Shown: piece after piece, positions 23,698-34,507 of the stretch
Layout: the number at the start of each line of letters is the position of its first letter
How positions within the stretch are numbered: position 1 is the first letter of the stretch
From: Actinomycetes bacterium
GTDB lineage: Bacteria > Actinomycetota > Acidimicrobiia > Acidimicrobiales > Bog-793
Reading direction: 5' to 3'
Length of the DNA stretch: 50,281 nt
Assembly: GCA_021798275.1 (NCBI GenBank)
Contig: JAJZMK010000141.1
Location: forward strand, 1-50,281
Position numbers and translations under genes: made by a program
Notes under the pieces: model-generated
Told to the model about the DNA's origin: nothing
What the model saw: only the letters and a program-made list of their open reading frames with translations
Databases searched by the model: none

Positions 23698-23972
23698 CAT
23701 AAATAATGTCAACGATATGGCGTCTTGTCCGGTTTTGATAGCCGTCGACCAGGCGCCAGTCTCTTATTATCATTTGAGGTCGACAACCCGTCTCTCGATA
23801 TTTCGAGACTTCCCGTGCGAGGCTAAAGAACCCGGCGGACATACCTGATAGATTTAGGCTGATTTACTCAGGGTCTTCAAGAGGGTCTCCAACTATCCTT
23901 ATAGCTTCATAATGCGTATTCTTTTCAGATAACGGCTTTTTCGACAATTCTTCTTTTTTCTCTGATTAGCAC
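23698..23972. other. Gene-free stretch between tRNA-Tyr and the mer-type promoter
   Basis: No convincing gene on either strand. A 6-bp hairpin TCTCGA-TATT-TCGAGA lies near 23792-23807 and a T-rich tract (TTCTTCTTTTTTCTCTG) around 23948-23965 precedes the operator. Nothing else is recognised. Confidence 0.5.
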
Positions 23973-24004
23973 TTGACATTCCAGTTAACTGGAATATCTA
24001 TCAT
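23973..24004 (+). promoter_or_regulatory. MerR-family-type promoter/operator of the mercury operon
   Basis: A -35 TTGACA (23973-23978) is followed by an 18-bp perfect palindrome ATTCCAGTTAACTGGAAT (23978-23995) and a -10 candidate TATCAT (23999-24004), leaving an unusually long spacer of about 20 bases. A dyad inside an over-long spacer is the hallmark of promoters activated by MerR-family regulators through DNA distortion. Downstream genes are of mercury-resistance type, which fits. No merR-like gene is found in the window, so the regulator must be encoded elsewhere. Confidence 0.7.
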
Positions 24005-24033
24005 TATCTTAGGAATCTTACGAGAGGATCTAA

Positions 24034-24294
24034 ATGAATATAATGTTACCAACCAAATCCTGTTTGAGTTTTGGCACCGTAGTGGAACGATTCAACGAAG
24101 TCATTAAAGTCGGAGGCCGTAATAGGGAATTTAGGAAAATAGTATTCCTAAATTTTAAAAGAGTGTCAGAACTAACGTTCCGTACTTTGTTTTTTATCAC
24201 ACGTGAAGCTTTAGCCACTGTCAACTTTTTTTGCCAGGGCCAGAGGGAGTTATTTGGGTTTGTTAACCCTATGATAGGTGGGGACCATGACTGA
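24034..24294 (+). CDS. Hypothetical protein, first ORF of the mercury operon
   Basis: An 86-residue basic protein with Cys at positions 10 and 67 and no recognisable domain; it does not resemble MerR, MerT or MerP. Support for a real gene: it lies directly behind the MerR-type promoter, GAGAGG (24022-24027) precedes its ATG at 6 bases, and its stop overlaps the merA start by 8 bases. Against: the opposite strand is open over the same stretch and the composition is unremarkable, so a non-coding leader is possible. Confidence 0.42.
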   Translation: MNIMLPTKSCLSFGTVVERFNEVIKVGGRNREFRKIVFLNFKRVSELTFRTLFFITREALATVNFFCQGQRELFGFVNPMIGGDHD

Positions 24295-25693
24295 AACAAG
24301 ACATTATGACCTTGCCATTCTGGGCTCAGGTAGTGCGGCGTTTGCTACGGCAATCGAAGCCAGAAGAAAAGAAGCGTCTGTCGTAATGATCGAGCGCGGC
24401 ACGGTTGGCGGTACCTGTGTCAATTTCGGCTGTATTCCTTCCAAAGCTTTGCTTGCTGCGGCGGAGGCTCGCCATATAGCACTCGATCAGCGTTTCCCAG
24501 GTATTACTACCGGTGGGGAAGGAGTGAATATGGCAGAGCTTATCGCCGGAAAGGATGCCATAGTAAATTTACTTAGGCGTGAAAAGTATGAGGAACTGGC
24601 CACTCTGTATGGATTCGATATCCTAAACGGTCATGCTCGGTTTGTCTCAGGACCGGCAGTTGATGTGAACGGAGAGCGCATAGAGGCAACGCACTATGTT
24701 GTCGCCACCGGTGCTTCGCCTTGGGTGCCGCCCATTCCCGGTCTTAGTGAGTCGGGGTATCTTACCTCGACGACAGCAATGGAACTGAGCAGTGTCCCCC
24801 GTTCGCTCATAGTCATAGGTGGCAATGCCATCGGTCTGGAACAGGGGCAACTTTTTGCGCGTCTCGGTTCGACCGTTACTATAGTTGAAGTATTACAGCG
24901 GATAGCTCCTTTTGAAGAGCCAGAAATTTCCGAGGCTCTCACAGCTATTTTTGCATCGGAGAATATAACGGTTCGTTCGGGATCAAGCATTGAAAAGGTA
25001 GCACGTGACGAAGAAGGTGTAGTGGTCTTGCTTAATTCCACCTCCGGTCATGAGGAGCTGAGAGCGGAAACGGTGCTTGTCGCTACAGGTCGGCGTCCCA
25101 ACACGGCCGGTCTCGATCTCGATATGGTTGGCGTTGAAGTTGGCCCTAGGGGTGAGATCCTTGTCAGCGAAGAGCTCCGTACGACCAACCCTCGCATTTT
25201 CGCTGCCGGTGATGTCACAGGTCATAAGCAGTTCGTTTATGTGGCGGGAAAGCATGGCAATGTCGTTGCCGACAATGCCATTGGTGGGGAGCATCGTCGT
25301 ATCGACTACCGTACTCTTCCTCGTGTGACCTTTACTTCACCGGCCGTAGCATCGGTAGGGATGACCGATGAGGAGGCAAATCAAGTCGGGCTAGCATGCG
25401 AGTGTCGCGTTCTCCCACTTACGCAGGTTCCGCGAGCAATAGTCAATAGAGACACCAGAGGTGTTGTCAAGATTGTCGCAGAACGGGGGTCGGGTCGCTT
25501 GCTCGGTATACATATGCTTGCAGACGGGGCAGGAGACGCAATTTTGGCCGCTGTGTATGCACTGGAAGCAGGGTTTTCCGTTGAGCGACTAGCTGATATC
25601 TGGACGCCGTATCTTACCATGGCCGAAGCTATCAAGCTTACCGCTCAGTCGTTTACCCGTGATGTCACGACCTTGTCGTGTTGTGCGTCATGA
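24287..25693 (+). CDS. merA: Mercury(II) reductase MerA (core form, no NmerA domain)
   Basis: A cytoplasmic FAD-dependent disulfide oxidoreductase expected to reduce Hg(II) to Hg(0) with NADPH. It shows the FAD loop AILGSGSAAFATAIEA, the redox-active GGTCVNFGCIPSK (C44 and C49), a second dinucleotide fold at SLIVIGGNAIGLEQGQLF, and the FAD-binding TTNPRIFAAGDVTG. The C-terminus YLTMAEAIKLTAQSF and LSCCAS carries the vicinal cysteines (C465, C466) that hand Hg(II) to the active site and distinguish MerA from dihydrolipoamide dehydrogenase. The N-terminal HMA domain is absent. ATG at 24287 behind AGGTGGGG is preferred to GTG at 24278. The stop overlaps the next gene. Confidence 0.93.
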   Translation: MTETRHYDLAILGSGSAAFATAIEARRKEASVVMIERGTVGGTCVNFGCIPSKALLAAAEARHIALDQRFPGITTGGEGVNMAELIAGKDAIVNLLRREKYEELATLYGFDILNGHARFVSGPAVDVNGERIEATHYVVATGASPWVPPIPGLSESGYLTSTTAMELSSVPRSLIVIGGNAIGLEQGQLFARLGSTVTIVEVLQRIAPFEEPEISEALTAIFASENITVRSGSSIEKVARDEEGVVVLLNSTSGHEELRAETVLVATGRRPNTAGLDLDMVGVEVGPRGEILVSEELRTTNPRIFAAGDVTGHKQFVYVAGKHGNVVADNAIGGEHRRIDYRTLPRVTFTSPAVASVGMTDEEANQVGLACECRVLPLTQVPRAIVNRDTRGVVKIVAERGSGRLLGIHMLADGAGDAILAAVYALEAGFSVERLADIWTPYLTMAEAIKLTAQSFTRDVTTLSCCAS

Positions 25694-25986
25694 AACACTC
25701 GACGCTTCATACAATGTCGGACAATACTGAAAACGACTTTCGGAGATCCGGTTGGATAGTAGAGATTCTGGCAATTCCGATGTTAATGTGTTGCGGACTC
25801 CCGACCATAGTCGCCGTACCGGCGACAGCAAGTGTATTGATCAAAGGTGTGCTTACAGGGGTAGCCGTAGTCGTGATCGGCACGGTATTTGTGGTATTGA
25901 TTAGCCGACATATTCGTCACAATCTGATTGTTGTGTTTCCCCTATTCATGAAATACCGTCATCCGAGTAAAAGGAGTTGGTCATAA
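25690..25986 (+). CDS. Small membrane protein with vicinal Cys pair (putative mercury transporter)
   Basis: A 98-residue protein with two adjacent hydrophobic segments (about residues 23-50 and 53-72). The first contains MLMCCGLPTIVAV with C34-C35. A Cys-Cys pair within the first membrane helix is the key feature of MerT, MerF, MerC and MerE Hg(II) importers, and the size resembles MerE/MerF, but overall similarity to any of them is not evident by eye. ATG at 25690 overlaps the merA stop (ATGA), so translation is coupled. It likely passes Hg(II) inward to MerA; this is inference from motif and position. Confidence 0.7.
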   Translation: MKHSTLHTMSDNTENDFRRSGWIVEILAIPMLMCCGLPTIVAVPATASVLIKGVLTGVAVVVIGTVFVVLISRHIRHNLIVVFPLFMKYRHPSKRSWS

Positions 25987-25989
25987 GCT

Positions 25990-26646
25990 ATGACGGACAA
26001 AATGGCTTCCTCCGTCTCGACTGCATACGAGGTTAGTGATGCTCTAATTTCGGATGTGCCGCTTGCGCCAGTATCGTCGATGGCACTTTTGAGATTCGTT
26101 ACACGAGATCGTGTCAATCAAACAGTTTTTCTAATTACCACTCTGGGCGTTATGTTACTCTATAGCCTTTTGCTCCCTTTTGAATATACTCAAAGATTTT
26201 CATTTGCCAATTGGCATTATCTTGACGTCCAACTTATCGCTTGGGCCGTAGTACTTAGCATAGGTATGGCATCTGTGATTGTGTTGCAGATTTATTCCAT
26301 GCGACAGATCGTAGCCTCCAAGACTCTTACCGGTGCGGTGGGTGGTCTTGCCTTCATTGGTAGCGTCATGCCAAGCTTGCTATGTTGCACTCCAATTATC
26401 CCAACAGTACTTGCCTTTGTTGGTTTTTCAACTGTCAGTGTTTACGGGACAACGGGTACTCTCCAACATTTCTTTGCAACAAATCAGACTGAATTTTTTG
26501 TTGGCAGCCTATTTATTATGGTGCTCACGGCATATTGGAGTATTAGGCGGGTTAAAAAATCCGCTTGTCTTGCCGGCAACTGTTATGTAAAAGAGCTCAC
26601 AAGTTCTAGCGATGATGTATTCCCCGACACAAGGGAGTTACAATAA
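25990..26646 (+). CDS. Membrane protein with CCTPIIP motif (MerT/MerF-like transporter)
   Basis: A 218-residue protein with about four transmembrane segments (about 45-63, 79-103, 114-147 and 168-186). The third contains SLLCCTPIIPTVLAF (C132-C133), close to the CCxxP pattern of MerF/MerT first helices. A second pair, CLAGNC (C193, C198), sits just after the last helix where it could pass metal to a cytosolic acceptor. The first 45 residues are hydrophilic. It starts 3 bases after the preceding gene and ends with TAATG overlap into the redoxin gene. A Hg(II) or related soft-metal transport role is inferred. Confidence 0.7.
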   Translation: MTDKMASSVSTAYEVSDALISDVPLAPVSSMALLRFVTRDRVNQTVFLITTLGVMLLYSLLLPFEYTQRFSFANWHYLDVQLIAWAVVLSIGMASVIVLQIYSMRQIVASKTLTGAVGGLAFIGSVMPSLLCCTPIIPTVLAFVGFSTVSVYGTTGTLQHFFATNQTEFFVGSLFIMVLTAYWSIRRVKKSACLAGNCYVKELTSSSDDVFPDTRELQ

Positions 26647-27293
26647 TGGCAGATCAAAGTGCTACCGGTAGGCGTTCCGTGAGCGGACGTAACAGCAAAA
26701 GACGAACTAGACAAGCAAGAAAAAGACGTCGCTTGCTGGTGCCTATCATTACCGTAATTATCGTAGTTATCTTTGGGACGGTTCTCGGGCTCCATTTAAG
26801 TTCTACGGCAACACAATCAAACTCCAACACTAAAATGGGCTCAACCAAGGCCGTTGGTCTCCGGGCTCCGGCTGGGATCCTGACAACGATTTCCGGTCGA
26901 CAACTAAACGTAGCCTCGCTTAGGGGAAAGCCGACATTGCTATGGTTTGTCTCTACGTGGTGCTCTTCATGCCAAGCAGGCACTCAAACTATGGCTCAGA
27001 ATATCTCACGGCTTCAAGCCGACGGCGTTCGAGTGGTGGAAGTAGAGTTGTATCAGGATCTAGGACAGTCAGGACCAAGTATCACTTCATTCGGGAAGCA
27101 GTTGGCCGGTGCTCATTATGGCGATCCGGACTGGATCTTTGCCACGTCTTCTTTTGTACTAACTCGGACCTATGATCCGGCAAGTTACCTCGACATTTAC
27201 TATCTCATCAATGCTAAAGGAAAGATCGTCTATGTGAACGGTTCACCGTCTGCGACCATGCCCGACATTTTGAGGGAAGCATCGACTCTTTAG
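26646..27293 (+). CDS. Membrane-anchored thioredoxin-like (redoxin/TlpA-type) protein
   Basis: A 215-residue protein: a very basic N-terminus (Arg/Lys-rich, residues 9-29), one membrane helix (about 30-50), a linker, and an extracytoplasmic thioredoxin fold from about residue 70. The active-site-like CSSC (C106, C109) lies in WFVSTWCSSCQAG; later YLINAKGKIVYVNGS matches the beta-hairpin end of TlpA/redoxin folds. GGGAG at 26632-26636 supports the ATG. As last gene of the mercury operon it may bind or relay Hg(II) outside the membrane in place of MerP, or keep transporter cysteines reduced. Role is inferred. Confidence 0.8.
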   Translation: MADQSATGRRSVSGRNSKRRTRQARKRRRLLVPIITVIIVVIFGTVLGLHLSSTATQSNSNTKMGSTKAVGLRAPAGILTTISGRQLNVASLRGKPTLLWFVSTWCSSCQAGTQTMAQNISRLQADGVRVVEVELYQDLGQSGPSITSFGKQLAGAHYGDPDWIFATSSFVLTRTYDPASYLDIYYLINAKGKIVYVNGSPSATMPDILREASTL

Positions 27294-27891: not shown

Positions 27892-28674
27892 ATGGATTGT
27901 GTAATTGATTTTCAGAATGCTGTTTTTGTAGCTGACGGGTTTCCGGTAATTGCAGGTGTGGATATGCGCGTAATGGGCGGCGAGGTTATTCACTTGCGCG
28001 GAGCTAACGGAGCGGGAAAGACAAGTCTACTTCGTGCTCTTGTGGGTTTAATCCAGATTAAATCCGGACGGGCGATAGTTTTAGGCCATGATTTGGCAGA
28101 CGACAGGTTCTCAGTCAGAAAAGATGTCGGATTGCTCGGGCACCGTACTTTTTTATATGATGATCTGACGGTTTTGGATAATTTGCGTTTTGTGCAGAAG
28201 ATTGCCCGCCAACCCAAAACATCCTTGGAGCGTTCACTCGATAAAGTGCATATAACATCAAGACTTCTATCTACCAGGGTTTCCCAATTGTCTACCGGGC
28301 AACGTAAAAAAACAGCATTGGCCGCGTTGCTGATCAGGGATTACAAGATGTGGTTGTTGGATGAACCGCATGCCGGTCTTGATGAAAGCGGCAGGATTTT
28401 GGTCGACCAACTTATTTTAGATTTTCAAAGCACAAAAGGTACCGTGATTATAGCTTCCCATGAATTGGACCGCGCTATGTCAATAAGTACCAGGAGCATG
28501 GTAATATCTGGGGGAAGTATCCCAGCAGGAGTTACCAGGGATGAAGCAAAAATTGTTCTTGCCGCCCCTGTCGATGAAGTTGATTGCAGATATGACATCT
28601 TGACAGCGGATACGGATAGCTATCCGCTGTCAAGTAACAAATCCGACAGAGGCGGCAGTGTCGATGTGGCGTGA
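27892..28674 (+). CDS. ccmA: Heme exporter ATP-binding protein CcmA
   Basis: The ABC ATPase of the CcmABCD complex of System I cytochrome c maturation, which releases holo-CcmE. Walker A is GANGAGKTSLL (about residues 37-47), the signature is QLSTGQRKKTALAALL, Walker B is MWLLDEPHAGLD and the switch His lies in IIASHELD. The GQRK/R signature and DEPxxGLD spacing are CcmA-like. About 50 residues past the ABC fold are poorly conserved. It overlaps ccmB by 17 bases. Confidence 0.88.
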   Translation: MDCVIDFQNAVFVADGFPVIAGVDMRVMGGEVIHLRGANGAGKTSLLRALVGLIQIKSGRAIVLGHDLADDRFSVRKDVGLLGHRTFLYDDLTVLDNLRFVQKIARQPKTSLERSLDKVHITSRLLSTRVSQLSTGQRKKTALAALLIRDYKMWLLDEPHAGLDESGRILVDQLILDFQSTKGTVIIASHELDRAMSISTRSMVISGGSIPAGVTRDEAKIVLAAPVDEVDCRYDILTADTDSYPLSSNKSDRGGSVDVA

Positions 28675-29371
28675 CGCTTTTTTGATTATGCAAAAAGACC
28701 TGAATATTGAATTGAAGTCAAAAGTTGTCTTCAACCAAGTCATCCCTTTCGGGCTCGTTGTTATCCTCTTGTTCGGCCTGGCGATCGGAAAGTTTGATTC
28801 TTCATCTCTGTCAACGGTCGGAGGTAATTTATCCGACGCCGGATTATTAAAAGATGCTTCGGCGGGGTTGTTCTGGATGGCGGTAACGCTGTCCGCCGTC
28901 ATAGGGGTCCAGCGGAGTTTTGCCATAGAAACCCAGGACCAGGCCCGAGATGCTTTGCGTCTTTCCGCTCTCGATCCGGCAGGTATTTTTTTGGGTAAGG
29001 CAGGTGCTTTGCTGGTGGAATTGGCTGTTCTGGAGTCAGTACTGGCGCTGTGTGCAATTTTTCTATTCGGAATGCAAATAGCTGTATTTTGGCTTTTCCT
29101 TGCAGCCTCATGTCTGGCAACGATCGCTTTGTCCGCTGTCGGAGTCATATACGGAGCTTTGGCCAGCGGTGCAAGAACCAGAGAAACTCTACTACCTTTA
29201 CTTTTCTTTCCGGTTATTGCTCCGGTCCTCTTGTCGGCAACAAAGGCATGCGAAGCCGCCATAGTGGGACAACCTTCTTCGGGTATGATTTGGATCGAAG
29301 TATTGGCCGTCTTTTCGCTTTGTTACATTGCCCTCGGGGTGGCGGCTTTTGGCTCGCTGTTGGAAGAATAG
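28658..29371 (+). CDS. ccmB: Heme exporter permease CcmB
   Basis: A six-helix membrane protein of 237 residues that pairs with CcmA. The N-terminus MWRDAFLIMQKDLNIELKSK and the loop ERSFAIE-like QRSFAIETQDQARDALRLSA are typical CcmB features, as is LLLFPVIAP-like LLFFPVIAPVLLSA in the fifth helix. GTG at 28658 follows GAGG at 5-base spacing and overlaps ccmA; an in-frame ATG lies two codons downstream. Confidence 0.9.
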   Translation: MSMWRDAFLIMQKDLNIELKSKVVFNQVIPFGLVVILLFGLAIGKFDSSSLSTVGGNLSDAGLLKDASAGLFWMAVTLSAVIGVQRSFAIETQDQARDALRLSALDPAGIFLGKAGALLVELAVLESVLALCAIFLFGMQIAVFWLFLAASCLATIALSAVGVIYGALASGARTRETLLPLLFFPVIAPVLLSATKACEAAIVGQPSSGMIWIEVLAVFSLCYIALGVAAFGSLLEE

Positions 29372-29422
29372 ACCGGTAAAGATGTCGAGAGCAACACAAT
29401 TTTTATCAAAAGGACAATTATT

Positions 29423-30361
29423 ATGAGTGAGGAAAATAGGATGACAGCGGTATCGCTCAGAGAAAAGCGAGCGCAAAAGGCGACAACTGTCGTAGGGATC
29501 CTGGCAGCGATCTCTCTTGTCGCCACCGTTTGGCTCGGACTTTTTATAACCCCTCCCGATGAGTTTATGGGCAATTTGGTAAGACTTCTCTATATCCATC
29601 CGCCGATTGCTTGGGTCATGTTTATAGCATACGGAGTTTCATTTTTGTCAACGTTACTGTATCTGTGGCCAAGGACCAGAGACTTACGTTTTGACCGCTT
29701 GGCCGGAGCCTCTAGCGAGGTCGGAGTGCTATTTACCGGCCTTACCTTGATTTCCGGCTCTATTTGGGGCCGTCCGACTTGGGGAACATGGTGGACCTGG
29801 GATCCTCTTTTGACAACAACGGCTCTTTTATTTGTCATGTATCTCGGATATTTAGCCCTCAGACAATTGCCCGGCGATCCCGATGTTCGGGCTAAGCGTT
29901 CGGCTGTAGGCGGATTGATCGCCTTTATAGACGTTCCGATAGTGTATTTTTCCGTTCTTTGGTGGAAAAGCTTACATCAAGCCCCCACCGTATTGGACCC
30001 CACGACCGGTAAAACGTATATCCACGGTTCGATGGCCTATACTCTTTTACTCGGGTTTGTGGCTTTTACATTACTGTTTATCTACCTATTGGCAAAGAGA
30101 TATAGATTAGCGGGGCTAAAAGATGTTTATGAGAGACTTTCCCTACAGGAAGCTATTGAGGAACGCAAGCTTGAAGCTACAGCCGGGCAATCGGCATATG
30201 AAAATGCGGTTTCAGCTTACGGGCCAAAAGATGAGCTTGTGGGGCAAAACTCATTTTTGGAAAAAGCCGGGTCGGAAAGCGAGATACCTCTGTATCCAAG
30301 CCATAGCTCCCAAAATAACCTTTCAATAAGAGCTCAAAATATCAGGGGAGAGATAATTTAG
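29423..30361 (+). CDS. ccmC: Heme exporter / cytochrome c biogenesis protein CcmC
   Basis: A six-helix heme-handling protein that attaches heme to CcmE. The tryptophan-rich heme-binding motif is WGTWWTWDPLLTT (about residues 120-132), with flanking His in YIHPPIAWVMF (about 54) and SLHQAPT (about 185). The last 80 residues are a hydrophilic extension beyond the CcmC core. AAGGA 8 bases upstream supports the ATG. The stop abuts the ccmD ATG. Confidence 0.92.
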   Translation: MSEENRMTAVSLREKRAQKATTVVGILAAISLVATVWLGLFITPPDEFMGNLVRLLYIHPPIAWVMFIAYGVSFLSTLLYLWPRTRDLRFDRLAGASSEVGVLFTGLTLISGSIWGRPTWGTWWTWDPLLTTTALLFVMYLGYLALRQLPGDPDVRAKRSAVGGLIAFIDVPIVYFSVLWWKSLHQAPTVLDPTTGKTYIHGSMAYTLLLGFVAFTLLFIYLLAKRYRLAGLKDVYERLSLQEAIEERKLEATAGQSAYENAVSAYGPKDELVGQNSFLEKAGSESEIPLYPSHSSQNNLSIRAQNIRGEII

Positions 30362-30508
30362 ATGAACGGTTATGTGGAAGCAGGCTACATATCAGTTTTC
30401 TCGATATTAGCAATATATGGAGTGTCTTTGGTTGTACGTATAAAAAAAATTCGTACCCAGGTATTCGCTTTTAAGAAAAGGCAATCCGGAGACGATATAG
30501 CTAGGTGA
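30362..30508 (+). CDS. ccmD: Small CcmD-like heme exporter subunit
   Basis: A 48-residue protein with one membrane helix (about residues 9-26) followed by a basic tail. It begins MNGYVEAGYISVFSILAIYG, resembling the Y-V-x-x-x-Y start of CcmD, and its ATG follows the ccmC stop directly. CcmD stabilises the CcmABC-CcmE complex. Identification rests on size, topology and position between ccmC and ccmE, since the family is poorly conserved. Confidence 0.72.
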   Translation: MNGYVEAGYISVFSILAIYGVSLVVRIKKIRTQVFAFKKRQSGDDIAR

Positions 30509-30633
30509 AAGTACGATCACTGTTCTGGCGGGGAAAAATTATGCAACAGATTCTTCTATCCTGGCGGTAAAATTAGCAGTATATATGTAATATATTTTGG
30601 AAAAATAATTTTGAAATTAAGTGATATATAAAG

Positions 30634-31095
30634 ATGTCTTTGAAAAAAAAGCAACAAAAGCGTAGATATGTTTTTGTCGGATTGGTGTTTGCCGGGGCAA
30701 TATCCTTTTTACTTTACAAAGCTGCTACGTCGGCATTTGTGTACTTTGAAACCGCTCAACAGGCTTTAGCCGAAAGATCTACGTTGACAGATAAGACTTT
30801 TCAAATAGAGGGAGCCGTATTGCCGTGTTCGGTAGAGAACTTGGGAAATGCCAATTATAATTTCATCATCTATTCCGGTAAAGCAAGAGTGAAGATAGAG
30901 AACCACGGTGTGCCGCCACAATTGTTTAAACCGAACGTGGATGTGGTTTTGCAGGGCCATTTTATAGGTTCCACCGATGTATTTTCATCGGATCAGATAT
31001 TGATTAAACATTCCAATAAATATATAGCGGCTCATCCGAATCGCCTCAAGCCCGGTACCGCAGCGCTTACTTGTCAGAGGAAAGCGCAGCTTTGA
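30634..31095 (+). CDS. ccmE: Cytochrome c maturation heme chaperone CcmE
   Basis: A 153-residue membrane-anchored periplasmic heme chaperone. After a basic start comes one helix (about 11-29), then the OB-fold beta domain. The covalent heme-binding His is H126 in LIKHSNKY, matching the H-x-x-x-Y signature, with Y130 as partner; a second His follows in AAHP. It is not the Cys-type variant. The gap of 125 bases after ccmD holds no other gene. Confidence 0.92.
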   Translation: MSLKKKQQKRRYVFVGLVFAGAISFLLYKAATSAFVYFETAQQALAERSTLTDKTFQIEGAVLPCSVENLGNANYNFIIYSGKARVKIENHGVPPQLFKPNVDVVLQGHFIGSTDVFSSDQILIKHSNKYIAAHPNRLKPGTAALTCQRKAQL

Positions 31096-31198
31096 CCATT
31101 TACAATTATCACTTCTTCCAAGTACCCGTAGTGAGGACGCAAATTTTTAGTAAGCACTTTGATATCGGACCGCTTCGGGAAAGACTGACGGATTGCCC

Positions 31199-33175
31199 AT
31201 GACGGCTTATATAGGTCACATAAGTTTAATATTGGCGTTTGCAAGTGCCGTTATCGCCGTATTGGCCATTGTTGTCGGCATGATAAAAAACAACCCGCGC
31301 CTTGTCAGGGTGGGTCATTTGCAACCATACTTAATGCTGCTGCTTACTCTAGTTGCAGTCGGGGCCATGGAGCAAGCTTTAATCTCGCATAACTTTTCAA
31401 TAGCTTATGTGGCCGATAACAATTCCAAGCAGACTCCGTTACTTTATTCCATCACCGGTCTTTGGTCCGCCCTACAGGGTTCAATTTTGCTGTGGGTACT
31501 GGTCCTTGTCGCGTATATATCGATAGTGTCTTTCTTGTTTAGAAAGAAAATATCAGACAGTGTCATCAGGGTATCGTTACTTATATCTTTACTTGTGGCA
31601 ATCTTTTTTCTGGCCCTGGTAGTTTGGCCGGCCAACCCTTTTGTCTCGGTTATCGGGAGACCACCTCTTGATGGCACGGGTCCAAACCCATTGCTCCAGG
31701 ACAATATTTTGGTGGCCGTCCATCCGGTATTTCTGTATATAGGTTTTGTCGGTTTTACCATCCCGTTTGCGTTTGCCATGGCATCTCTCATTACAAAAAG
31801 AGTGGGCGAAGGATGGCTGCTGGAAACCAGGCGTTTTACTTTAGTAGCCTGGGGAGCTTTGAGCTTAGGTATTGTCTTAGGCGCCTGGTGGTCATATCAA
31901 ACCCTTGGTTGGGGAGGATTTTGGGGATGGGACCCGGTAGAGAATTCGGCTCTGCTTCCCTGGTTGACCGGAACAGCATACCTACACTCGGCCATGGCTC
32001 AAGACAGACGCGGTCTTCTCAGGGTCTGGAATCTTTCCTTATTGATCGCCACATTTTCGTTGACGATACTTGGAACTTTCCTGACCCGTTCCGGCGTGAT
32101 CGTCTCTGTCCATGCATTTTCCGATTCCAATCTCGGTCCGGTTTTGCTGGCATTTTTTGCCTTTGTGGTGGGATCGGGTATTTTTCTGATTGCCTGGAGA
32201 GGTGAAGTCCTTTCCACACCGGGATCAATAGACGCTCCTTTGTCGCGCGAGGGAGCGTTCTTGTTGAATAACTTACTTTTTGCCGCTTTTGCTTTGGTGG
32301 TACTGGTAGGTACTTTGCTTCCTCTCTTTGTGCAAGCACTAAACGGTCGTTCATTAAGTATAGGAGCCCCATTTTTTGACGCTTTTACAACCCCGATAGG
32401 TCTGACGCTTCTTTTTTTGATGGCCATAGCCCCGGCTCTGCCTTGGAGAAAGTCAAATATGACCACGCTGAGGTCCAGACTCCTGGTGCCCGTATGGGCA
32501 TCCTTAGCAGTGCTTCTAGTATGCGTCGTCGCCGGGGTCAGAGGATTTACACCCCTTCTTACGTTTACCCTTGGTGCATTTGCCGGTTCTTCTGCTTTAC
32601 GGCAAATAATTTTGGCCACCGTCTCGGCTAAGCGACATAAGTTGCCTTTATATCGGGGAATACTCGGCAGAACAAACGGAGGAATGCTTGTACATCTCGG
32701 TGTCGTTGTGATTGCGGTAGCTCTGGCCGGTGCAACTTCGTTTGCCCACAGGACACAGCTCAGTATAGAAAAAGGCCAAACCGTTGTTTTTGATCAACAT
32801 TCTTTTACTTTTCTCGGGTGGCAGAAAATCCTTACTCCCAGCGAAAACGGAGTACAAGGCTTGGTAAGAATAGACGGCGGCGGAGTTTTTAAACCCGGCG
32901 TGGCTTCCTTTGACGGCAATCAACAGGGGACCGGCACTCCGTCCATAGATTCTTCCGTCGTAGATGACGTTTATTTGTCCCTGGCATCCGGCCCGGCTAG
33001 TTTGCCGTCCAATCAACCTCTGGTGGTTGAAGTTTACGTACAACCTCTTGTGATGTGGATGTGGGTAGGGGGTGGGATGATCTTTTTCGGTGCCATTTTG
33101 TCTGCCATCCCCGGGAAGCGAAGGAAGCCGACCCAGCCGGCTTCGCTGTATTTCCCCGAGTTGGCAAGCGGTTGA
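31199..33175 (+). CDS. ccmF: Cytochrome c heme lyase subunit CcmF
   Basis: A large membrane protein (about 658 residues, roughly 15 helices) that takes heme from holo-CcmE and ligates it to apocytochrome c with CcmH and CcmI. The WWD heme motif is WGGFWGWDPVENSALLPWL (about residues 240-258) and ARTGPNPLLQ-like GTGPNPLLQDN precedes a VHPVFLYIGF His motif, all canonical. A soluble periplasmic domain lies near residues 520-610 before the last helix. ATG at 31199 is preferred over TTG at 31193. Confidence 0.95.
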   Translation: MTAYIGHISLILAFASAVIAVLAIVVGMIKNNPRLVRVGHLQPYLMLLLTLVAVGAMEQALISHNFSIAYVADNNSKQTPLLYSITGLWSALQGSILLWVLVLVAYISIVSFLFRKKISDSVIRVSLLISLLVAIFFLALVVWPANPFVSVIGRPPLDGTGPNPLLQDNILVAVHPVFLYIGFVGFTIPFAFAMASLITKRVGEGWLLETRRFTLVAWGALSLGIVLGAWWSYQTLGWGGFWGWDPVENSALLPWLTGTAYLHSAMAQDRRGLLRVWNLSLLIATFSLTILGTFLTRSGVIVSVHAFSDSNLGPVLLAFFAFVVGSGIFLIAWRGEVLSTPGSIDAPLSREGAFLLNNLLFAAFALVVLVGTLLPLFVQALNGRSLSIGAPFFDAFTTPIGLTLLFLMAIAPALPWRKSNMTTLRSRLLVPVWASLAVLLVCVVAGVRGFTPLLTFTLGAFAGSSALRQIILATVSAKRHKLPLYRGILGRTNGGMLVHLGVVVIAVALAGATSFAHRTQLSIEKGQTVVFDQHSFTFLGWQKILTPSENGVQGLVRIDGGGVFKPGVASFDGNQQGTGTPSIDSSVVDDVYLSLASGPASLPSNQPLVVEVYVQPLVMWMWVGGGMIFFGAILSAIPGKRRKPTQPASLYFPELASG

Positions 33176-33406
33176 AAGCGATGAGTTTGTCTCTGCCTAC
33201 CGATACCGGAGCCTTTTGTTATCATCATCTGAGGGTCAGATTTGATTTTGAAGTAGGTAAGCCTGTTACATCATTGCCAAAGCCATGATGTCGTAGATTT
33301 CCCTTCTTATCCGGGTTCTAAAACCTCTTACCGGTTGTTTTAGGAAATATAAATGTTGTAATTTAGACATAGACGTTTTGAAGATGGGCGCTAAATAAAT
33401 ACAGCC

Positions 33407-33970
33407 ATGACATATAGGAAACATATCAAAACATTTGCTTTTATAACCGCTCTTTTGGCGGCCGCTTTGGTTGCGGTTCTGGCCACAAGGAGTCCCGCTT
33501 CGGTAACGGGTAAGGTCGTGTCCGATTTGGGTGGTAAGACGGCTCCCAATATCAAGGGAGCTGACATAGCAAGCGACAAACAAATTTCACTCGACTCCAT
33601 GCTGCAAAGTCATAAATATGTGCTTATTGATTTTTTTGCATCCTGGTGTACCACCTGCCAGCAGGATATGGCCCAACTTGAAGCTTTTCAATTCCACAAT
33701 TCCAAGAAAGTATCTATATTGGGTGTAGACATCGATGACAGCGCAGCTAACGGGATCGCCTTTCTTCGCTCTTACGGGGCGAAATGGCCGGCTATCGAGG
33801 ATAGTAACGGGCCTGACAGTATCGCCGTTACTTACGGAGTGGCATCTCCTCCGGAGATGTTTCTTATTGCCCCGGATAGAAAAGTAGTGGCTTATTTCGT
33901 GGGCGGGGCAACGGAGAACCAGCTTAACGCTGCTCTTGATGATTTACAAAAAGCCAACTTGAAAAATTAG
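33407..33970 (+). CDS. ccmG: Thioredoxin-like thiol:disulfide reductase (CcmG/ResA type)
   Basis: A 187-residue protein with an N-terminal membrane anchor (about 9-27) and a thioredoxin fold outside. The active site is C81-T-T-C84 in FFASWCTTCQQDM; the acidic insert near VDIDDSAANG and the cis-Pro region VASPPEMFLI are typical of CcmG/DsbE/ResA. It would reduce the CxxCH cysteines of apocytochrome c before heme attachment. It lies 231 bases after ccmF; no clear Shine-Dalgarno is seen. Confidence 0.88.
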   Translation: MTYRKHIKTFAFITALLAAALVAVLATRSPASVTGKVVSDLGGKTAPNIKGADIASDKQISLDSMLQSHKYVLIDFFASWCTTCQQDMAQLEAFQFHNSKKVSILGVDIDDSAANGIAFLRSYGAKWPAIEDSNGPDSIAVTYGVASPPEMFLIAPDRKVVAYFVGGATENQLNAALDDLQKANLKN

Positions 33971-33979
33971 GATTTTCGG

Positions 33980-34507
33980 ATGTATGACAAACCTCATATA
34001 TCCGGGGTAGACGACAGACGAGAAACAAATAGAACAAATAGGTTGACAATTGAGATGAGCAAACACATCAATATTTCCCCGGTAAAGACATTTTACCGTT
34101 CGCCGACGGGATTTTTGCTTCCCGTTATTTTGCTTGCCGTACTTCTTGTAATAGGTAGTTTTCATCCGTCTCAACCGACAAAGTCTCAACGCATCAACTC
34201 GTTGGATAATATAATTAAATGTCCCGTCTGTGCCGATATATCCATTGCTCAGTCCGACGCCCAGATAGCCGGGCAACTGCGTTCTTCGGTTAGGAAATGG
34301 GTGGATGAAGGTAAGACGAATTCTTGGATAGAATCAGCGGTCGTGGCCAAGTTTGGGTCAAACGAGATATTGGATCCGCAGAATAATTTAATTTTTATTA
34401 TTCCGGCAGCGGTCATAATTGCCGCTCTACTCATCCTCTTTACTTATTACATACGGCGCTTTAGGTCTTATAAAAATCTTTCTTTAGAGGAAGAAGCTCT
34501 CACGTGA
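33980..34507 (+). CDS. ccmH: Cytochrome c maturation protein CcmH (CycL type)
   Basis: A 175-residue membrane protein with two helices (about 45-61 and 134-155) and, between them, the three-helix thiol-oxidoreductase domain. The redox motif is KCPVCADISIAQSDAQIAG, corresponding to the family LRCxxCQ signature. It handles apocytochrome c thiols with CcmG and CcmF. The N-terminus before the first helix is unusually long; an internal ATG at 34055 would remove 25 residues and may be the true start. Confidence 0.92.
   Translation: MYDKPHISGVDDRRETNRTNRLTIEMSKHINISPVKTFYRSPTGFLLPVILLAVLLVIGSFHPSQPTKSQRINSLDNIIKCPVCADISIAQSDAQIAGQLRSSVRKWVDEGKTNSWIESAVVAKFGSNEILDPQNNLIFIIPAAVIIAALLILFTYYIRRFRSYKNLSLEEEALT

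Follow-up and report, generated by a model that had tools for sequence, protein, structure and literature searches.

How does Hg(II) reach mercuric reductase in a cell whose mer operon provides neither MerT nor MerP, the usual import proteins? The question is posed by a locus on a 50,281-nucleotide contig (JAJZMK010000141.1, analysed at full length and called the window here) of an Acidimicrobiales bacterium (assembly GCA_021798275.1; genome G000, 2.09 Mb, 86% complete). Behind a MerR-type promoter, this locus encodes in tight succession MerA, a 98-residue Cys-Cys protein, a 218-residue membrane protein that we call CC218, and a membrane-anchored redoxin. As a whole, the operon serves mercury detoxification without MerT and MerP. 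In our estimate the chances are about even that it provides an alternative means of Hg(II) import, with a repurposed redoxin in the place of MerP and with CC218 acting much as MerT does without being a member of the MerT family. The features of the locus are the following:

23972–24004, plus strand: MerR-type promoter/operator with TTGACA, the palindrome ATTCCAGTTAACTGGAAT and TATCAT; read directly and from a second genomic copy
24034–24294, plus strand: 86-residue open reading frame (ORF), probably no gene (leader or chance ORF); without family match, overlaps the merA start
24287–25693, plus strand: merA, mercuric reductase without N-terminal HMA domain and with C-terminal CCAS; TIGR02053, 5.6e-174
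25690–25986, plus strand: 98-residue CCGLP protein with two transmembrane helices (TMs), putative short transporter of the MerT/MerE/MerF type; alignment with the MerT-annotated protein of pMM23
25990–26646, plus strand: CC218, member of an undescribed family, probably with four TMs; 23 homologues with conserved Cys
26383–26388, plus strand: codons of CC132-133, part of the CCxPxxP motif; present in 23 of 23 homologues
26646–27293, plus strand: membrane-anchored redoxin with ResA/TlpA-like fold, WCSSC and Asp183; AlphaFold2 model and Foldseek
26961–26972, plus strand: codons of CSSC, residues 106–109; CxxC kept by every linked redoxin whose sequence reaches this site
27192–27194, plus strand: codon of Asp183, first residue of the strand that bears the cis-proline in thioredoxins; phmmer/hmmsearch alignment to ResA, strand 183–188 in the model

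MerA scored 579.5 bits against TIGR02053 (equivalog cut-off 454.45), and its translation contains the active-site sequence CVNFGC (CVNxGC) as well as the terminal Cys pair CCAS. The genes are joined by an ATGA overlap between merA and the 98-residue gene (25690–25693), a 3-bp gap before the CC218 start at 25990, and a TAATG overlap of CC218 and the redoxin gene at 26646. Both overlaps had been pointed out in a first-pass annotation of the sequence, and the Cys motifs that it listed (CCGLP, CCTPIIP, the distal pair C193 and C198, and CSSC) are all present. That annotation counted five ORFs, of which merA, the 98-residue gene, CC218 and the redoxin gene hold up; the 86-residue ORF found no family in Pfam and NCBIfam searches, so that the supported genes are four, not five. 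Scans for sigma-70 promoters and terminators returned a signal no greater than in shuffled sequences.

The anchored redoxin and its membrane partners

The redoxin starts with ten Lys/Arg among 29 residues, followed by a single N-terminal TM. AlphaFold2 predicts a confident thioredoxin fold (core pLDDT, the per-residue confidence score, about 90), for which Foldseek gave ResA as the top match (3.4e-10), with Sco copper chaperones among the matches. Fold, membrane anchor and WCxxC are common to this protein and the redoxins ResA, TlpA and CcmG; it differs from them, however, in an invariant Asp at the cis-proline position and in having merA rather than cytochrome genes as operon partner. All 36 linked redoxins covering the site (residue 183, the first of strand 183–188), some near-duplicates included, carry this Asp, whereas ResA has Pro in the same alignments. 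Asp is also found there in PDB 3ha9, a thioredoxin-like protein of Aeropyrum pernix, which is the best PDB sequence match of the redoxin and may be an archaeal relative with a solved structure.

The cis-proline may prevent metal binding to the CxxC motif (PMC2757866), and in human Trx1 the exchanges P75S, P75T or P75A suffice to admit an iron-sulphur cluster (PMC6210436). Since the latter paper also notes exceptions, and since Asp is absent from the cis-proline replacements that it cites, loss of the cis-proline is a pointer to metal binding and not proof of it. Redoxins encoded on diderm plasmids have signal-peptide-like starts, which matches the expectation for a counterpart of periplasmic MerP. 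MerP itself is an HMA domain with GMxCxxC, whereas the window redoxin adopts the thioredoxin fold. A precedent for a redoxin fold acting as metal carrier is provided by the Sco proteins, although these, unlike the window redoxin, have CxxxC plus a His ligand and supply copper to cytochrome oxidase. Two variants were observed elsewhere. In many actinobacteria the first redoxin has a tandem companion that shares its Asp and bears a GGCASC-like motif (locus L018, 8300–8947; also L019, L021, L047, L050, L051, L053, L054 and L055), a companion lacking in the window; the Halorussus redoxin (L024, 6242–7870) is fused to DUF3105 and has, upstream, a twin-arginine-like stretch and Cys-rich, finger-like segments.

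CC218 was compared with its relatives in a set of 23 members, the others being 19–56% identical to the window protein. CC132-133, located in TM3, is conserved in all 23, C193 at the end of TM4 in 21, and a second C-terminal Cys (C198 in the window, likewise after TM4) in 14; the CCxPxxP motif is kept in nearly all members. Four helices, as described in the first-pass annotation, are likely: TM4 is visible in the model and in the alignment, but it lies below the hydropathy threshold and the model is of low confidence. The charge pattern suggests that both termini face inside, which would put the TM3 pair within the membrane, with the terminal pair facing the cytoplasm.

None of the 23 members matched MerT (PF02411), MerC (PF03203), MerE, MerF or DsbD/CcdA (PF02683) in Pfam searches, and CC218 appears to represent a new family outside all Mer families tested. 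Canonical MerT resembles CC218 in its linkage to merA and in having one Cys pair in a TM and one that is cytoplasmic (in CC218 by predicted topology), but has three TMs and belongs to PF02411, whereas CC218 probably has four and lacks a PF02411 match. We rejected CC218 as a true MerT homologue, because the hhalign probability of 58% fell to 24% without insert columns, barely above shuffles, and the signal was lost when Cys were masked; the C-terminal half resembles MerT through its cysteines alone, which is a likeness of layout and not demonstrated homology. MerH of Mycobacterium marinum pMM23 is, as CC218 probably is, a four-TM mer membrane protein from an actinobacterial operon. An identity with MerH was discarded as well, given an hhalign probability of 0.2% and the fact that MerH matches Pfam MerC (8.3e-14), whereas CC218 does not. 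The same fate met CcdA, considered for its similar CxxPxxP spacing: the profiles aligned at 2.5%, and most carriers of CC218 own a CcdA too.

The first-pass annotation had regarded both Cys-Cys membrane proteins as unfamiliar and had left it to profile comparison whether the accessory proteins fall within described mer families. The 98-residue protein, unlike CC218, does resemble such proteins. It has two TMs, the first with the CC, and a basic tail, features that it has in common with MerE, MerF and the short MerT-annotated protein of M. marinum pMM23; the latter is among 17 further small CCGxP-type proteins with which it aligns, the CC being invariant in all 18. The hhalign probability of its profile against MerT was 67%. 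Against the curated Mer models it stayed below every cut-off, the MerE match being weak (0.0028; 17.6 bits versus a cut-off of 80), and the window copy is devoid of the C-terminal Cys present in its relatives. The alignments thus suggest a short Mer transporter of known kind, resembling the two-TM transporters of other actinobacteria, which leaves CC218 as the only unfamiliar membrane protein.

Recurrence beside merA

Homologues of CC218 were found at 27 loci: 18 in actinobacteria, seven in proteobacteria (Acidithiobacillus, Acidiphilium, metagenome-assembled genomes (MAGs) from acid sites, and Glaciecola), and two on haloarchaeal plasmids of Halorussus. As these include near-duplicates (one Halorussus plasmid of the other, L023 of L058, and one contig of a MAG of a second contig from it), the independent loci number about 24. 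A redoxin adjoins CC218 in 26 of the 27 loci; 20 of the 27 include merA, if the merA fragment of genome G577 is counted. The recurrence that the first-pass annotation had proposed to look for is therefore real, CC218 and redoxin standing beside merA in actinobacteria, Acidithiobacillus, Acidiphilium and Halorussus. A narrower genome scan with a strict pattern yielded at least six loci, whereas no CC218 was found among the viral contigs of IMG/VR. Across the phylum CC218 is uncommon, occurring in 2 of 396 sampled genomes.

The arrangement differs between lineages. In actinobacteria the order is merA, small CC protein, CC218, redoxin; in proteobacteria it is merA, redoxin, CC218; and in Halorussus a unit of ArsR, small CC protein, redoxin/DUF3105 and CC218 is divergent from merA. 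A constant gene content in variable order argues for function rather than a single inherited block. Furthermore, pairwise distances of CC218 correlated with those of the redoxin (r = 0.90, n = 18 loci; 0.82 within actinobacteria) and with those of MerA (r = 0.81, n = 12), although part of this correlation is shared ancestry. Two neighbouring arrangements were seen in addition: on the Acidithiobacillus plasmid (L023, 6536–7129), CC218 is followed by a gene for a Met-rich protein of 197 residues with a signal-like start, and genome G134 (L022, 2748–5983) combines merA with a small CC protein and a pair of redoxins but has no CC218, the cis-proline site being Asp in one redoxin and, by alignment, Ser or Glu in the other.

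Among 148 genomes of the order, CC218 occurred in 12, MerA above cut-off in 22 and both in 11 (Fisher p = 6e-10, a value that ignores relatedness; the 12 carriers span 11 genera). The twelfth carrier is G577 with its merA fragment, and carriers in which CC218 is unlinked to merA have merA elsewhere in the genome. MerT was detected in none of 15 CC218 carrier genomes, no redoxin-bearing locus contained a stand-alone MerP-like ORF, and the window locus has no ORF with an HMA domain. The sole CC218 locus lacking a redoxin, on Glaciecola plasmid pGLAAG01, possesses merT, merP and merC. This is a single case, yet it shows the pattern that replacement of MerP by the redoxin predicts. The locus (L056, 5067–6483) lies in a Tn3-type transposon region, where merR, merT, merP, merC and merA precede a second merR, a gene for a 131-residue membrane protein and the CC218 homologue.

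The survey of mer operons in PMC3466566 tabulates MerT, P, C, E, F, G and H, and neither there nor in PMC8261052 is a redoxin mentioned. We found no description of a redoxin or TlpA in mer operons in the open-access literature; an earlier account may exist elsewhere. Plasmid records label the redoxin 'redoxin family' and CC218 'hypothetical'.

Regulator and insertion site

The promoter was correctly recognized as MerR-type in the first-pass annotation. It contains at 23972–23995 the sequence CTTGACATTCCAGTTAACTGGAAT, in which an 18-bp perfect palindrome overlaps TTGACA; the palindrome stands between the two promoter hexamers, TTGACA and TATCAT, whose spacer is 20 bp. Long hexamer spacing is typical of MerR-controlled promoters. 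The genome holds one further copy of the operator, with one mismatch, directly before a gene for a 133-residue MerR-family protein on contig C7, while the reversed pattern used as control had no genomic copies. In the C7 copy (L085, 1221–1935), the promoter is directed away from the MerR gene; opposite MerR, it faces an apparent small thioredoxin-like gene, seemingly broken by a frameshift. Three Cys of the C7 MerR are positioned like those of metal sensors of the family, which makes it a candidate metal sensor, the metal itself being one that we infer. In G571 and G606, merA has a divergent MerR gene whose product ends in a similar C-x6-C. Together with the second operator copy, this suggests that the operon is probably regulated by the unlinked MerR on C7. 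A search of other loci did not turn up the operator motif.

About 600 bp past the mer redoxin begin cytochrome c maturation genes (27892–34507, ccmA onward), among them one for a CcmG-like redoxin at 33407. Two genomes of the same genus have neither CC218 nor MerA; one of these, G621, has other ORFs and no operon between tRNA-Tyr and ccmA. From this synteny we rejected membership of the operon in the ccm cluster; the operon occupies a variable site, and the ccm genes are probably bystanders.

Mercury import and competing explanations

How could these parts cooperate? The unlinked MerR-type regulator would control MerA along with three membrane or extracytoplasmic thiol proteins. Outside the cell, the anchored redoxin, whose CxxC no longer faces a cis-proline, would bind Hg(II) like MerP and hand it to CC218, whose vicinal Cys in TM3 would receive the ion. 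From there CC218 would shift it to its other Cys pair, where TM4 ends on the cytoplasmic side, and thence to MerA, a layout of two pairs as in MerT, and the 98-residue CCGxP protein may be a second, MerE/MerF-like importer. Topology, Hg(II) binding, the direction of transfer and the handover to MerA are what we infer here. The first-pass suggestion of a redoxin in place of MerP is partly supported: two points that it did not foresee, the missing MerP and the lost cis-proline, speak for it, with mercury binding, transport and the direction of flow being its conjectural part. Transport is favoured because of the loss of the cis-proline, the mutual exclusion with MerP and the MerT-like Cys layout. 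Just short of even, in our judgement, are the chances of the broader proposition that bacteria and archaea have in common a second, independently built import route, in which a redoxin, its CxxC having become a metal site when the cis-proline was lost, plays the part of MerP and is paired with a new family of Hg(II) carriers.

Several observations weigh against import by redoxin and CC218. Seven CC218 loci are not beside merA, and TlpA-type redoxins also neighbour merA without CC218 (G134, G557). The 98-residue protein alone could accomplish import. The second Cys on the cytoplasmic side occurs in just 14 of 23 CC218 members, and the similarity of the CC218 and MerT profiles is weak and borne by Cys (27.8, where shuffles reached at most 26.1; masking Cys lowered it to 20.6). 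Modelling of CC218 gave a poor structure (pLDDT 57), for which the fold search found no match. Finally, ResA/TlpA-like proteins normally transfer electrons.

This last point leads to the main rival, namely redox support, which we consider unlikely but serious. Here, the redoxin would be a ResA/TlpA-like reductase and CC218 would conduct electrons across the membrane in the manner of a small CcdA/DsbD, so that extracytoplasmic thiols (those of the 98-residue importer among them) stay reduced or give up their Hg(II). Such a role is favoured because of the fold, with ResA as top match, and the usual function of ResA-like proteins; in addition, the CxxPxxP spacing in CC218 resembles SPCxLPxxP of CcdA, and DsbD/CcdA went undetected in G000, G502, G537 and G571. 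However, an invariant loss of the cis-proline is unusual in a thiol reductase, the poor profile match of CC218 to CcdA speaks against a conduit of this type, CC218 has one Cys-Pro motif whereas CcdA/DsbD have two, and CcdA occurs together with CC218 in 11 of 15 carrier genomes. As to G000, no CcdA was found in the 86% of the genome that is available, but its genus mates possess one.

Efflux or surface sequestration, in which CC218 would export mercury as Hg(II) or Hg-thiolates while the redoxin would trap it outside, is improbable. Admittedly, the importer role of small CC proteins is assigned by analogy alone; but association with cytoplasmic MerA calls for import, and the C-terminal Cys pair of CC218 parallels MerT and MerC. 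About as improbable is that the pair serves another process, such as cytochrome c maturation or general thiol stress, and stands near merA incidentally. The ccm genes directly downstream and the seven loci apart from merA would fit such a role, whereas the statistical association with MerA, the recurrence beside merA in two domains and the G621 arrangement, which points to an insertion site beside the ccm genes, do not. Just as improbable is an ordinary mer operon with a very diverged MerT/MerC and a passenger redoxin, for which one could cite the weak, Cys-driven likeness to MerT in the C-terminal half of CC218 (hhalign 24–58%), but which is at odds with the absence of Pfam Mer matches in 23 homologues, the two extra N-terminal TMs of CC218, and the fact that a redoxin co-varies with CC218 and adjoins it in 26 of 27 loci.

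Taken together, half of the MerA-bearing genomes in the surveyed order own a CC218-redoxin pair that has so far gone uncounted, and which also turns up on acidophile and haloarchaeal plasmids. If import by redoxin and CC218 is true, it would explain how Hg(II) gets to MerA in the absence of MerT and MerP. The redoxin would then be a natural example of a protein of this fold made into a metal carrier via replacement of a single residue, and the pair would provide new parts for mercury uptake and biosensing.

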